Program-made: the position numbers and the translations under genes | Source: Astropecten irregularis | Lineage: Eukaryota; Echinodermata; Asteroidea; Paxillosida; Astropectinidae | Length of the DNA: 64,000 bases | Assembly: GCA_963971285.1 (NCBI GenBank) | Contig: OZ020248.1 | Span: forward strand, 24,759,873-24,823,872 | Direction of reading: 5' to 3' | Notes under the pieces: generated by a model | What the model saw: the letters and a program-made list of their open reading frames with translations, nothing else | Databases searched by the model: none | What the model was told of the DNA's origin: nothing | In this document: positions 1,885-58,463 of the stretch, one piece after another | Position numbering within the stretch: position 1 is the first letter of the stretch | Layout: the number at the start of each line of letters is the position of its first letter

Positions 1885-1965
1885 GTCTGCTCCGTCAATC
1901 AAGCAAGCCTTTGAGAAAGATCCTGCTAGGATCAAAACGCGTCATCAGGCCCTCCTAACTTTAAG
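1885..1965 (+). repeat. Dispersed repeat with GATCCT hairpin, copy 1
   Basis: This fragment contains AGCCTTTGAGAAAGATCCTG followed by a short hairpin (GATCCT, GCT, AGGATC) and then AAAAC and CCCTCCTAACT. The same block recurs at 2680-2737 and 54190-54245, and in weaker form at 10978-11096. It is the right-hand part of the foldback element described at 2492-2737. Confidence 0.55.
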
Positions 1966-2491
1966 CAATCAAGCAAGCAATCAGACTGTGAGGTGTGGCA
2001 GCAAGCAGACGATTATGATTTGACACCGCCGCATGAGTTGAAAGTCACCATGTCATCATTATCCTATAATTCAGTCATTCACATGAAGCATTCTACCGAC
2101 TTGAACTAAAAAACAAAAATGATTTTGATGGGCAAAAGTGAAGGAATTTACTCAGGATTTTAATGTATCGAATAACCACAAGGGAAACTGGAATAATTTT
2201 CAGTAATTTTTTTTATTGTTTCACTTTTCAATGACTCAGGATTTTATCCATTAACTATTGAAAAGCTCATATTTGCAGGTCATTGCAGCCATAATGATGT
2301 CTCACTTTTTGTTCTGTTTTCTTTTCCCTTTTCTCCTTTTTTTTTACAACCTTTCACTTGTTTATTTTTGGGATGTGAATCCAGGCAGCCCTTAAGCAAA
2401 CAAGTGAAATGTTCCTCGAGGGTTGTGGTTGTGCTTCACTTTTTCACATATAGTTGATGTCATGACATTTATATCAAACAAATTGAAATTA

Positions 2492-2737
2492 TGCTTGGAG
2501 TTAGGAGGGCCTGTCGCGTTTATCGAAGGCTGAATGACAAGACAACAACATGCAAGTCAAGATACAGAACAAATAATGGATGAGAAGGTCAGGTCAGGTC
2601 ACAGGTCAAAAGAGGTGTGTGTGGGGTGAAGGTGTGTAGGATTAACTTCTTGACTTCCATGTTGTCTTCTTGTCATTCAGCCTTCGATAAAGATCCTGCT
2701 AGGATCGAAACTCGTCAAGCCCTCCTAACTCCAAGCA
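2492..2737. mobile_element. Foldback element with TGCTTGGAGTTAGGAGGGC ends
   Basis: The left end reads TGCTTGGAGTTAGGAGGGCC and the right end is its reverse complement (GCCCTCCTAACTCCAAGCA). Inside, TTTATCGAAGGCTGAATGAC is matched by GTCATTCAGCCTTCGATAAA. The right arm also holds the hairpin GATCCT-GCT-AGGATC followed by GAAAC, which the left arm lacks. The element is 246 bp and has no reading frame. Relatives occur at 1885, 10978, 45818 and 54190. Confidence 0.65.
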
Positions 2738-2868
2738 TTTTATAAATTTCAGGTCATTATTTGGCTGATGAGCAGTTTGCAGCAATTTGTGATGTATTTT
2801 TATGTATTATTTAATTATGTATTTCTTACTGTACATTATTCCAAAAATCTGTCACAAACTTTGCACAG

Positions 2869-10515: not shown

Positions 10516-10886
10516 TTAAAGGTAGTATCATACTTTAGTAAGACACCAAAAAAGGAATGTCCACAGATTTAAGTATAACTTACAGGGTGTGAAGATGGCG
10601 GTGGTAGAAACATAGGCCTACCGTTCAAATATTTACGCCCGAAATTGTGTATTTATCCAGAAATTAGTAAAACAATGACTGAAAATCTTTTTGATCTTTT
10701 AAAAGATCAAAAATAAAAGAGAAAAGACTTAAGAAAAACTGTGGCCGTTTTTCGCTGTTTTCTCAAAAAGTGGGCAATGTATGGGACTGAAAATTTCAAA
10801 GATGACTGTTACTGTATCTGTCTTGGTATTTTTGCCCATGAATCTGCATTTCTCTGATAAAAACAAAAGTATGATACTACCTTTAA
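10516..10886. mobile_element. MITE with TTAA duplication, copy 1 (intact ends)
   Basis: The element is flanked by TTAA on both sides (10516-10519 and 10883-10886). Its ends are inverted: AGGTAGTATCATACTTT on the left and its complement on the right. The centre is a palindrome, TTTTGATCTTTTAAAAGATC. Length is 363 bp without the duplication. TTAA duplication is the hallmark of the piggyBac and Kolobok superfamilies; which one mobilised it cannot be told without the parent transposase. Six more copies are in this window. Confidence 0.8.
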
Positions 10887-18000: not shown

Positions 18001-21000
18001 TCACATGTGTATAATATCCATTTTGAAATTATAGGCCGAGATATCAAAGTTTTGGGTTCCATTTGAAAGTAGATCGATACTCTGTTTTGAAAAAGAATAC
18101 AGAGTATAAGCCTCATCAGAACTCAACAACCTGCAATTCAAAGTTTGGATGGCAGCCAATTGAAGCCAAAGCCGGAGCCTACACTGAGGTTTCGAAAAAG
18201 GCCCCTAGAAAGGTATCTGTGTGTGTTCAACCATTAGGTATATGACATGTACAGACACTGTACTTGATTAATTAGAAGTGGATGACCCTAAATAACCGGC
18301 TGACATCTTGATGATTAAAGAGTGTGACATGCATTCCCAACTGGTTTATTGTAGAGGCAGTTGCCTCTACAAAGATAGACTGCATCCCTGGCTGCATCAC
18401 AGCAGCATTAAGTAATATATGCACCTATGGCAGCCACTAGCCAGTGATTACAGCCGTTTCCCATAGACGTGTGTATTATTTGCAGCCACAGCCAGAAATG
18501 TGGTACACAGTCGTAGCTCAGTCCACTTGGCCATGGTGTCAGTGTGTCGTGTGCACAAGATGGGTCCCATCCCTTGGGTGTAACCACCCCCACCATCTAA
18601 TTCTTGCAGTGAATGAAGACAGGTGGTTTTGATATCTTGAGATGACAGAGTTCATTGGGTTTATTTCACTGACAACTGATGGCATTTGATGCGCATGGAA
18701 ACTTGCCCTCTGATGAGCACTTTGTGCAGTGCAGTGATTATTCAGAGTTACACACACATGCATATCATTAAGGCGCCTTTCCATATGTGCGTTTTTTCAT
18801 CCGCTGCGTATACGCTGCGTGTGCGTTAAAATTGCCCATTAAAAAGACACGCGACCTTTTCAAACGCACGCGCACATATGGAAAGGGTCGCTTGTTTTTT
18901 TATAATGATCAATTTTTTTGCAACGCGGCGGACACGCAACGTATACGCAGCGGATGAAAAAACGCGCATATGGAAAGGCGCCTAAATTACACTTATGTGC
19001 AGCACTTTATCAATCGTTTGTATTGGACCAATACATGTATCTAGGAAAAATACTACTAAATAAGAAATATGGGACACCCCATTCTCAATCCTTTCTAAAA
19101 TCCTGTTTACTCAAACAAGTTTTAGTGCAAATTCTGTGCCCGTTTGGGAGACCTAATGTACATGTAGAAACCCCCTTTTGTATTAAGTAAAAATAAACAT
19201 AGTGGACAATGCATGCAATGTATTACATATATTTTAAGATAATTATAAGAATTACTTTAAGACTATGAATGGCAGAAGTACATGAAGTACCGGTAATTGT
19301 TTGTGGCAACACCATGTGACATACATAAATGTATCTCTTTTGTGAGTATGGGGTGGCTCTGAAAAGAACCGGCTCTTTTCAGAGCCACCCCATACTCACA
19401 AAAGAGATCTATGTCACATCATGATATGTTACCGCAAGGATTGCATTTTTCTATTCAGAGCTTGTACATTTTGTATCGCACATACTAACATACTTTCCGA
19501 AGGCTGTCATACTTGCTGAGTGTATTTCTGGCTCTTTTATATAAAGTAGTTTTAATCTATGTCATTTTTTACCCATACATGTACATGACCTGTGTGCTTT
19601 TCGTTTTGTTTTTGGTAGATGAGTGACAAGAGAACTCTTAGTTTCTCCATTGCCGTCCGAACCCGCGGTGAGACCTACGACACGGAGAGCACCCTCCAGC
19701 TGACCACTGCCAAGCCGCCGTTCCGCGAGCGGCTTCTCCGGCGAGTTGCCCAGGAGGTCCTGACCAACGAGGACGACCGACGGAACTTCTGCAGCAACTT
19801 CCACTGGTGTCTTCCTCCTCTCTTCATGCTGTGCATCAGCTGTGTTGAGGTGAGCTAAGGGCCTGTTTGTTACGCCGCGGATCTTGATCATCATATTTCA
19901 TCTTACAAATCCAAGTCCAGGTGCTGATTTCATAAAACTCTGCGACGCATCGCATCTCGATTTGCGACCCGTCATAGCTGCGACGCGTCGCATAGATGCG
20001 ATGAATCCATAGAGAAAGGATGTGTCTTAACTCTGTGACGCGTCGTAAGTTTTATAAAATCGGCCCCTAGGCAGGTTACGGTAAAATGCAATCCAGAGCA
20101 GATTTTTAAGGTAATAGTATTTGCTGTAACACACTATGACATGTATCTTTTGTGAGTATGGGATGGCTCTGCAAAGAGCCGGTTAACTCAATGTTCCGGT
20201 CAGTATATACTCTGGCCGTCTTCAGTAGAATGCTCCTGAAGGCATGCTTCTGAAGACGGCCAGAGTATACTGACCGAATCGTCGAGTTAACAGGCTCTTT
20301 TCAGAGCCACCCTGTATTCACAAAAGGGATATGTCACATGGTGTTACCACAAATCCTTTTACTTTACCGGTACATGTTCTTTCGCCATGCATAGCCTTAA
20401 ATCGAAATTAGAGCAGTTTTTGCGGTTCGGATCACTGATGATCGCGTTCCTGAAACAAACAGGAACTAAGAGCCTGTCTGCCATTAATCTCGTTGATCAC
20501 AGATCCCTGTCAGCCTTTTGACAGATATTTTGCGCTAAAAATGTTCACTCATTCACATAATGTCAGGATCGGAACTGCTGTCGTGAGCCCTTTCATGAAT
20601 AGGCCGGAACCCGGAAGTATGCATTGAAAATGTATGAGAAGTGTGTTGTAGGATTGTTTCTGTTTGCGCTCGAATTTTGCATACAAAATCCCATAGGCTG
20701 GCTGTCTGTGGAAGGGTCTATGGCTTTTAATAATTAAAGATGCACTTGATGTATGCTCCATCCATCAAGATTTAAGTATTTGGGAAATTTGATGTCAGTA
20801 TTTGGCTCGAAGTCAGCACATAGGATGTCAAAATGTTCTATTTTTGTAGTACTGTCACAGGTATTAAATTCAGGGCTCGAATTTCGTGAAAAAAAATCAC
20901 TGGACAGCAGGTCCAGTAACTGAAGCATTTTACTAGACTTTTTTCACTAGACTTGTGGCATTCATGTACATAAGAAAACCATAATTATATGCAATATTGT

Positions 21001-40240: not shown

Positions 40241-40588
40241 TTAAAGGTAATACTTTGGTTTTAGTAAAGGAAATGCAGATTAATGGGCAAAAATATCAAG
40301 GAAGATGCGATCATCTGTGAACTTACCTCAGTCCCATACGTTGCCCATCTTCTGAGAAAACAGTGAAAAACAGCCACAGTATTTCTTAAGTCAATTTTCT
40401 CTTTTATTTTGGATCTTTAAAAGATACAAATTAATTTTGGGCATTGGTCTGGATAAATACAGCATTTCAGGCAGACAAACTTTAGCAAGATGTTTCTACC
40501 ATCACCATCTTTATACCCTGTAAGTTATATGGTAAATCTGTGAAGATTTCTGTTTCGGTATGCTACCAAAGTATGATACAACCTTTAA
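40241..40588. mobile_element. TTAA MITE, copy 3 (both ends present)
   Basis: TTAA flanks lie at 40241-40244 and 40585-40588. Ends are AGGTAATACTTTGG and CCAAAGTATGATACAACCT. The interior matches 52328-52697, including ATCTTTAAAAGAT near the centre. Confidence 0.75.
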
Positions 40589-52100: not shown

Positions 52101-55100
52101 CAGTCACCATATGGGATTCCCCATGCATGGAGTAAACAGCATAATATAATCTTGCGCATGGAATACTCATATAAATTTATATACCATCTGTCATTCAAAA
52201 TAGTGTTTACAATCTAGGATATGCGGTAGCAGAGATAGCATTCAACTATATGCATTCGTATCACAATAGGAGATAACGTTATTGTTTAATATCTCCAAAC
52301 TTATCAGTGATCTCCCTCTTTTTTTTGTTAAAGGTAGTATCATACTTTGGTTTTTGTCAAAGGAATACAGATTCATGGGCAAAAATATCAAGGAAGATAC
52401 AGTCTCAGTCATCTGTGAAAATTTCTGTCCCATACGGTGCCTACTTTTTGAGAAAACAGTGAAACACGGTCACAGTATTTCTTAAGTCTTTTCTCTTTTA
52501 TTTTTAACCTTTTAAAAGATCAAAAAGATTTTCGGTCGTTGTTTTACTACTTTCTGGATAAATACACCATCTCAGGCGGACAAATATTAACGATATGTTT
52601 CTACCATCACCATCTTCATATCCTGTAAGTTATACGTAAATCTGTGAACATTTCTGTTTTGGTTTCTTACCAAAGTATGATACTACTATACCTTTAAAGG
52701 GTGATTGAGATAGAACCAACCTTTAATCCCTTTTCGGTTGAGAGGTCTCCAATATTACCAGTAAATCACAATAATAAACTAGGAAATTTTGGATATATGA
52801 ATTGTCTTTGAAGTTTGAGCACTGCATAATAAACGTCACGAAATGCGGAATGCAGAATGATATACTGCTTCGTTAAACTCCCTGAGCACTCAGGAATCGC
52901 TGCATGGTGTCATGTTGAGTGGTTAACAGTTATTTTGACCCTCTGTCGTCCAAATTAAAAACGCCCTCAATTTTGAACTTGGGTGTCTATAATGTCTACA
53001 TTATATAACATTATAATTATGTCAATATGTGGCCTGACGTCACCACGATTGCATTATCAACGTTACCACTCACCCGCCAAAAACACTGGAAATCAAAACT
53101 TGTTCTCAAATTTGCTTCTCATTTTTCTTTGTGTTCAGTTGAGGTAATCTAGTGTCTTGTATATTGTTATGTCTTTCCTTATGGATCAGCATTGTATCTT
53201 AAGGGTAATGCACTTTATACAATATCACCATCACGGACACTACCTAGGTCCGTCATCACCATTCCCATCACCATTTGTATACCACGTCTAATACACCATG
53301 GAGGAAGGAAATGCTCCATGAATAGACCAACACGGTGTGATAACCTTTTAGCATCACACCTTTACATCACTCTCCATGTGTACACTTTCACCAAATCATC
53401 CTCCCTAGGACTGTAATGATAATTGTGATCTTGCCTGGAATGATGGAAAGCTTAAGTAAACCCTATACACGGATGCAAGATGCAAACAGTGACCCCTGGT
53501 GGCTCATCATGTTTTGTTTTTACACCGGCAGTGTCCCTAGCAGCTCAGGCAGGAAGCGTCAGCTGTCTGGAGGAACTCATCGACGTGTCTCAGGCAGACC
53601 CAAGACGACCCGATCAGGAGGGCATGACACCGGTTCATTACGCCGCCCAAGCAGGTAATTAAGACGGCGTCGACGGACCCCTGGCATCGGGGCATGACCA
53701 CCGTGGAAGAATGGAAATGTCCATCAAGCATCAAAAAGCCATCAAAGATATGGTCGCAAAATTTGGAGGTCATTTGTATGCGACCTTTTACGTCATAAGG
53801 TTATAACAACTTGTCAAGGCATACAATTGCACCCAAAATACACTTTCGTTATGATTCAAAACATAAAAACAATCTTGCTGTTTCCGGATATATTTTCAGT
53901 CGACATGCCGGATGATGCATTTTCTTTCTGAGAAAGTATGAGGATGAGATAAATCTATTATTCTCCAGGGCACAGCCAGCTCATAAACAGTGGCCGGAAA
54001 GTCGAGTTAACATCCGGTTTTACCAGCATTATTGCATGGTGCAATTTACCACAGAACTTTGAGCTTGAAATGAACTTTTTCTCTGGTCATCACTCTGTCC
54101 CCCTTTGTTCTGAACCTCTCATCCACTGATATGTGTCTTTACTTGCATCATATAGAGCTATGCTTGCATGGTCTTGTCCTCTTGTCATTTAGCCTTTGAG
54201 AAAGATCCTGCTTGGATCGAAACGTGGAACCCTCCTAACTCCAAGCATTTGAAATGCCTGGTACATCACGTCCGTGACTGTCTAAACAGTTGCCTGTTTT
54301 GTGAATAAGTTTCATCTCTTCGTTTGACAGTAATTTTGACATACTTGTTGATATCTTGATTCATTTGGCAGGTCATTTGAATTGCACTCACTGGCTGGTA
54401 CGGCGGGCGAGATGTTCCTTGAACGAATCCAGGAAGAAAGATGGAGCGACAGCCATGCACCTTGCAGCTGGAAAAGGCAAGAGATGGATAATTCATCAAT
54501 TAACCGTTTATGCCGGCCACATTATGTAGATGAAAATTTAGAAACAAGTAGGCCTATACAGTGAAAGATTTGAGGCTTTGCATGGTGACAATTGGTGTGT
54601 GGATCGGTTTGTGGAAACACCATGTTCGATCGTACTTTCGCGCTTCTATTTCGTTCGCAGTGCTCATATAAAGGTCTCAACGTTTCGACTAGCCTGCTCT
54701 AGTCATCATCAGGAGACAGTGCTCATCATAAGCTCTGAAATAATCCCAATTATTAGTTCTTTTCTGCCAACCACTTGAAGTTATGAAGATGTCAGTATTC
54801 ATGCTTGCACTTACAGACGAGGAAGAGCGATACGAAATACTCAGCCACAATGGATATCAACTTCATTCGCTATTTATGTCTCGTTGTATAGAGAGGAAGG
54901 CACAGAAAAGAAACGTCCTCACAAGATTTAATCAAAAATCTTCCAATTCCCTATCCGAATGAAGTAGTAAAACAACTCATTACACATAATATTAATTACA
55001 CGCAGTTAAATGAGATTCGAATGTTTGTATGATTGGTTATCTACGTAGGGTTTTTGTGGTGACACTGAGACTGGCTCTGAGAAATATTACTCAATGTCTC

Positions 55101-58136: not shown

Positions 58137-58463
58137 TTAAAGGTTGTATCATACTTTGGTAAGAGACCAAAACAGAAATGTTCACAGATTTACGTATAAC
58201 TTACTGGGTATGAAGATGGTGGTGGTAGAAACATACCGTTAAAATGTTTCCGCCTGAAAATGGTGTATTTATCCAGAAATCGGTTAAAGAACGACCCGAA
58301 GCTTTTTTGATCTTTTAAAAGATCAGAAATAAAAGAGAAAAGACTTAAAGAAATACTGTGGCCGTTTTTCACTGTTTTCTCAAAACGTGGTCACTGTATT
58401 GGACTGAAATTTTCACAGATGATTGTGACTGTATCTTCCTTGATATTTTTGTCAATGAATCTG
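58137..58463. mobile_element. TTAA MITE, copy 6 (interrupted on the right)
   Basis: TTAA (58137-58140) and AGGTTGTATCATACTTTGGT start it; the central palindrome is at about 58310-58330. The match stops at GTCAATGAATCTG, where the hairpin array at 58464 begins. Confidence 0.75.

Follow-up and report, generated by a model that had tools for sequence, protein, structure and literature searches.

A histone pre-mRNA 3'-end module in the inverted arms of a putative Penelope-like family and in a DDE transposon of Astropecten irregularis

Two palindromic elements, E1 and E2, lie in the window, the 64,000-nt stretch of Astropecten irregularis DNA analysed here, and their arms contain the stem-loop and the downstream element of a histone pre-mRNA 3' end. 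To our knowledge, histone-type 3' ends are almost confined to histone genes. What kind of mobile element are these two, and does the histone ending serve them? We compared both elements with the histone genes of the same genome, with their own relatives across that genome, and with the published anatomy of transposable elements.

Two palindromic elements with histone-type 3' ends

The inverted arms of E1 (~19250-19437) meet head to head at the junction 19370/19371. Compared by eye with the consensus of 79 arms described below, its left end (~19250-19290) is tail-like and its right arm terminates at ACCGCAA; inspection of the flanks revealed no clear target duplication. On the plus strand, E1 has an exact histone-type 16-mer stem-loop (19371-19386), followed 13 nt on by the downstream element AAAAGAG (19400-19406); on the minus strand, it has a second stem-loop with one mismatch (19355-19370) and another AAAAGAG (19335-19341). 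E2 (20108-20409, boundaries by eye) consists of inverted arms and a spacer, with a tail (~20367-20409) at its right end only. Its plus-strand stem-loop (20293-20308) is likewise exact and is followed 13 nt on by AAAAGGG (20322-20328), and its minus-strand stem-loop (20165-20180) has one mismatch and is accompanied by AAAAGAT (20145-20151). An imperfect 13-nt target-site duplication, called by eye, flanks E2 on the plus strand (AGAGCAGATTTTT at 20095-20107 and AGAGCAGTTTTTG at 20410-20422). Inside the element, two mutually facing 28-nt hairpin arms (20206-20269, 93% complementary) contain a hammerhead-like stem II region.

Read outward, the arms of both elements follow the order GGCTCTTTTCAGAGCC-ACCC...CAAAAGAG. 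The window contained five matches to GGCTCTTTTCAGAGCC at up to three mismatches, with 0.43 expected, and five were reached in none of 100 shuffles. The Rfam model RF00032 (Histone3; cutoff 34 bits) matched 19366-19412 on the plus strand with 41.5 bits (E 7.6e-9 in 64 kb) and 20288-20334 on the plus strand with 39.3 bits; the minus-strand arms did not pass this cutoff, so that two of the four window arms are above it. ACC(C) directly follows the stem-loop in three of the four arms, and ATCC follows it in the minus-strand arm of E2. An earlier note on this DNA had placed exact stem-loops at 19371(+) and 20293(+) and near-exact ones at 19355(-) and 20165(-), and these coordinates proved right. 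Its statement that both parts, correctly spaced, are preserved in all four arms held for the spacing and nearly held for the letters: CAAAAGAG, which starts 12 nt past the stem-loop, is exact in both E1 arms only, and E2 has the variants CAAAAGGG in its plus arm and CAAAAGAT in its minus arm. The element ends differ slightly from those it gave, E2 being best read as 20108-20409.

An exon-like stretch (~19619-19849; splice-like borders by eye) lies between the two elements; it gave no Pfam match. The sense stem-loops of E1 and E2, both on the plus strand, flank it. Strong terminators at these positions would truncate the gene; hence the two elements have little or no activity, the gene can cope with them, or the stretch is no exon after all. 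We also observed that the arms at 19367-19405 (E1) and 20146-20184 (E2) are 95% complementary across this stretch, an arrangement able to favour exon circularisation. Just outside the elements lies a perfect 12-nt inverted match (19438-19449 and 20083-20094; GGATTGCATTTT and AAAATGCAATCC).

The module in the genome and in its histone genes

We searched the whole genome (475.7 Mb, 168 contigs) with RF00032 and scored 75 of 91,728 first-look candidates, all 75 of which were above the cutoff. A single array on C18 (15.516-15.618 Mb) accounted for 52 of them. The 23 dispersed matches comprised 19 arms seen in letters, two copies of a pogo-type element (one read) and two that were not read. The C18 array consists of tandem histone H1 genes, as judged from 15 of the 52, which share the same H1 coding end; their identity is given by a Pfam Linker_histone match (E 1.7e-21; open reading frames listed for locus L031). 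Each of the 15 genes ends in GGCTCTTTTCAGAGCC, then ACATATATTCAAAAAAGAGAT, with AAAAGAG 12 nt past the stem-loop.

The arms were compared with these genes in an alignment of 79 arms from loci found with queries that included the stem-loop. The 16-base stem-loop is identical in arms and H1 genes. AAAAGAG follows it at 13 nt in 63 of the 79 arms and at 12 nt in 5 (68/79 in total); the downstream element stands at other distances in 4 arms and was not found within one mismatch in 7. The best arm scored 44.7 bits against at most 42.2 bits for the H1 genes, and 14 arms outscored the H1 genes. The bases behind the stem-loop differ, being ACCC in the arms and ACAT in the H1 genes. The arms thus carry the full histone pre-mRNA 3' module: the stem-loop bound by SLBP, ACC, and the U7-type downstream element near the host spacing. 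Here the module sits within a mobile element, where its processing is putative. The comparison with the species' own histone 3' ends, which the earlier note had called for, supports its observation that the arms carry the parts of such an end.

A chance likeness to a histone stem-loop would be conceivable if mobility required a palindromic segment within the arm, since short stem-loops are common and the arm is palindromic elsewhere too. The host H1 genes, however, have the identical 16-mer and AAAAGAG at nearly equal spacing, to which the arms add ACC, and the Rfam match in 64 kb has the very low E-value given above. With the histone ends of the host matched so closely, a chance resemblance is hardly credible, and we strongly disfavour it.

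The downstream element would be recognised by U7 snRNA. A search of the genome with the Rfam U7 model gave scores of 27.4 and 25.3 bits, under the cutoff of 34, and a pattern complementary to the host element had two matches against four in the reversed control. One U7-like candidate (L091, C28:11238600-11238720, match at 11238628; Rfam 20.1 bits against the cutoff of 34) reads TCTCTTTTCC then ATTTGTCTAGTAGG and has a weak hairpin. Its end could pair with AAAAGAGAU, a pairing that is partly by construction. At -8 kcal/mol or below, this end pairs with 52 of the 79 arms and with 22 of 1580 shuffled sequences, a comparison that the candidate also partly fits by construction.

The genome search with the arm sequence proposed in the earlier note showed a repeated family. 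The exact 28-mer AGTTAACCGGCTCTTTTCAGAGCCACCC occurred 52 times, and a 45-mer spanning the stem-loop and the downstream element matched 153 genomic sites at up to three mismatches (a two-armed copy may yield two such sites); the reversed controls gave zero in both cases. Three DNA arm queries produced 505, 852 and 971 first-look candidates, of which 40 were scored for each. Read in sense, the consensus arm begins with a hammerhead-like CTGAAGAC-GGCCAG...CTGGCC-GRAAC, then GTTAACC, then the stem-loop, which is followed by ACCCCATACTCAC, AAAAGAGAT, an AT-rich spacer and TGTCACATGGTGTTACCGCAAACCTATTACTTTA; some arms extend past TGTCACATGGTGTTACCGCAAACCTATTACTTTA by a tail of ~35 nt ending in AAATCTAAGTT. 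A frame upstream of the stem-loop (...TTSPVSTSQLQHSPEDGQSILAETSS, stop) was considered as a protein C-terminus and rejected: it had 145 matches, many with stops, and the longest open frame was 197 aa. A tandem array of 54-nt units related to this frame leads into one arm at C27:9199152-9204783, and its frames are interrupted by stops.

Anatomy of the inverted pairs

Automated calling gave 26 inverted pairs; a few calls may merge neighbours (L017, L089), and the pair at L018 does not include the stem-loop. The tail is present at one end only in 20 of the 26, where the other end stops near CTTTA. Convincing target duplications of 9-16 nt were found in 9 of the 26 pairs and were missing from 17, as judged without a shuffled control; this tally omits L079, an artefact, and a window row that fused E1 and E2. 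The excerpt of PMC3846280 consulted here describes a similar design for Penelope elements: inverted pairs of pseudo-LTRs (pLTRs), an optional 31-bp tail on one side, and target duplications that measure 8-10 bp where present but are missing from part of the copies; the first 12 codons of the ORF lie in the pLTR, or 22 with the tail. According to the consulted part of PMC11167929, the tail of Penelope-like elements (PLEs) is an extension of 30-40 bp that may or may not be present, and a hammerhead occurs in the PLE of that study and in others. The consensus arm has an ATG 28 nt past the stem-loop, with 11-12 codons up to CTTTA and 23 with the tail; the frame was measurable in 31 of the 79 arms and open in 24 of these, a proportion that carries little weight given how short the frame is. 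A CTGANGA-type hammerhead pattern occurs in 23 of the 79 arms. The Rfam hammerhead models gave no match at E<=5 in five loci, and we term the motif hammerhead-like only. A match to MIR7993 (47.3 bits, cutoff 100) was attributed to palindromy and discounted.

Metazoan retrozymes are tandem units, whereas the arms are inverted here, with a hammerhead-like motif that the Rfam models did not match in the five loci. Retrozymes can otherwise be likened to the arms, at least as they appear in the consulted part of PMC7229834, being short retroelements that are non-autonomous and have a type I hammerhead. The likeness to PLEs, as far as the excerpts cited above describe them, extends over the inverted terminal modules, the one-sided tail of 31-40 nt, the short target duplications, the hammerhead-like motif and, where the pLTR ends, the possible start of an ORF. 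Two differences are that in the arms the hammerhead-like motif is separated from the tail by a histone 3'-end module, and that their duplications of 9-16 nt exceed the 8-10 bp in the excerpt of PMC3846280.

The same genome contains a GIY-YIG element with which this anatomy could be compared. Of 158 candidates for its frames, 150 were scored and 60 of these matched, many with equal score, with open frames of up to 954 aa (C17:11037274, C27:8780251 and others); it is probably a young PLE family. The pLTR of this element is contained in the 502 nt after a 921-aa frame. Inverted pairs of it, tailed on one side, are present in the window (2480-2798) and at L051, L087 and L089, and at L079 it is inverted but without the tail. 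A solo piece of it in the window (1909-1965) stands between perfect 13-nt repeats, CAATCAAGCAAGC (1896-1908 and 1966-1978). We considered the GIY-YIG element as the parent of the stem-loop arms and rejected it: no stem-loop is seen in the 502 nt that follow its frame (L090), and we therefore take it as a related family in anatomy only. Among the matches listed, no reverse transcriptase or GIY-YIG parent carrying the stem-loop was found beside the arms, and by eye none of the 60 listed GIY-YIG matches lay within 5 kb of a listed arm.

The earlier note had called the elements foldback DNA transposons. The length of the inverted arms, the single perfect duplication of 9 nt (L083) and the fact that no retroelement coding region appeared beside the arms among the matches listed would suit a foldback or MULE-like transposon whose long terminal inverted repeats include a histone 3' end. 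Yet the ends are unequal, with the ~35-nt tail on one of them in 20 of the 26 called pairs, the duplications vary from 9 to 16 nt, and the GIY-YIG element of the same genome is built in the same way. The called pairs lack the symmetrical ends and the fixed-length duplications by which a foldback transposon is recognised. We consider this origin quite improbable, and that part of the earlier description was not supported. The one-sided tail, the variable duplications and the equal anatomy of the GIY-YIG element argue instead for pLTRs, and by its anatomy the stem-loop family would be another PLE family, with a putative PLE parentage.

Conservation, a second transposon and possible use of the module

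In the stem-loop-query set of 79 arms, all six stem pairs are complete in 43, the loop is TTTC in 68, and ACC stands behind the stem-loop in 66. We tallied mismatches in 99 of 100 printed sequences among the 153 matches to the 45-mer, excluding one row with three mismatches as well as the CpG pair (which includes the first stem-loop base) and the last two bases, all of them variable. The stem-loop and downstream element had 45 mismatches over 22 positions, compared with 59 over 19 in the rest (odds ratio 0.65, p 0.036), and the module is thus slightly more conserved than the other positions. The earlier note had held that copies whose module drifts as fast as the other arm bases would speak against it, and single copies came close to doing so. 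Such near-neutral decay indicates that single copies are mostly not under selection and that E1 and E2 are probably relics, decayed short copies. Strong selection on individual copies is thereby disfavoured; use of the module by an active element would not be contradicted.

The histone signal also occurs in a second, unexpected place, a pogo-type transposon unrelated to the arm family. A broken DDE_1 transposase gene at L022 (1250-1545; C14:14723769-14724064) carries the histone stem-loop; the DDE_1 piece, one piece of a frameshifted gene, scored 27.4 bits against a cutoff of 22 (E 2.9e-6). We take this transposase to be of the pogo/Tigger type, and its C-terminus (...FNGFDL, stop) is presumably of the pogo-like acidic GF type. 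The stem-loop lies 27 nt past the stop codon and AAAAAAGAGAG begins 10 nt past the stem-loop, and by these two features L022 differs from the pogo/Tigger DDE transposons with which it has the DDE_1 piece in common. The downstream element is spaced 12 nt from the stem-loop, as in H1. A sequence at C11:20010453-20010785 is 86% identical to L022 over nearly all of 331 nt and has a matching transposase piece alongside. In 17 more places the match is confined to the last 90-150 nt of the L022 query, stem-loop included, at 76-88% identity; in L086, the sole one read among them, the downstream element has decayed. The other 20 rows of this search match little beyond the stem-loop region, and may be histone genes, or (one row) the coding part only. 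Both copies read, L022 and L086, have an AATAAA site further downstream. Separately, a repeat of ~360 nt found in the window (10516-10886, 52328-52686, 58137-58462 and 40241-40588) is also present after the L022 gene and in many other loci examined.

On balance, we favour the reading that the arms are inverted pLTRs of a Penelope-like family and that the pLTR, with its complete histone pre-mRNA 3'-end module, uses or once used this module for RNA processing. In sense, the pLTR would comprise the hammerhead-like motif, the histone stem-loop, ACCC, the U7-type element and a possible ORF start. The full unit would be pLTR-ORF-pLTR, and SLBP/U7 processing in its downstream pLTR would give the mRNA an end past the stem-loop, yielding a non-polyadenylated message that is translated in S phase. 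Reverse transcription would use the uncleaved read-through RNA as its template, since inserted copies include the tail, which lies beyond the cleavage site. The position of the module within the inserted sequence counts against this explanation, because the template would be lost if cleavage were efficient. In the pogo-type element, the transposase gene would use the histone-type ending directly. We infer both the use of the module and its coupling to S phase.

A histone 3' end might instead have been captured by a PLE pLTR, for example by template switching onto a histone pre-mRNA, and amplified as an unused passenger. The nearly neutral decay of the copies and the position of the module inside the reverse-transcribed part are consistent with such a capture, as is the ability of PLE pLTRs to mobilise host sequences described in the excerpt of PMC3846280. 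A passenger would not be expected to keep its stem through the paired changes GGTTCT..AGAACC seen in the diverged arms of L011 and L089 (two loci only), nor both parts and their spacing in most of the 79 arms of the stem-loop-query set. The second, unrelated transposon with the module just past its stop codon is a further point against it, and we regard an unused passenger as rather unlikely.

A use of the module by both elements would go further. A PLE and a pogo-type DDE transposon would independently have taken over the histone 3'-end pathway and would make non-polyadenylated, SLBP-bound S-phase messages; we offer this as a possible but doubtful extension. S-phase timing would have the element proteins made while fresh DNA is available. 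In the retroelement, whether U7 cleavage yields message or read-through yields template would decide between translation and retrotransposition. Every inserted inverted pair would act as an outward-facing terminator of the histone type on each strand.

Our literature search, which covered neither most subscription papers nor the Repbase reports, found no paper joining Penelope-like elements with the histone stem-loop, and none of the papers on the histone stem-loop and transposition concerned such elements by title or opening of the abstract. More than 100 known sites in mobile copies make a direct test of the histone-type ending possible. If the proposed use is true, SLBP/U7 sites would be scattered across the genome, introns included, such elements would escape poly(A)-based RNA surveys, and transposition would be tied to S phase. 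A histone ending linked to the cell cycle may have been adopted, for their own RNA, by a retroelement and separately by a DNA transposon.
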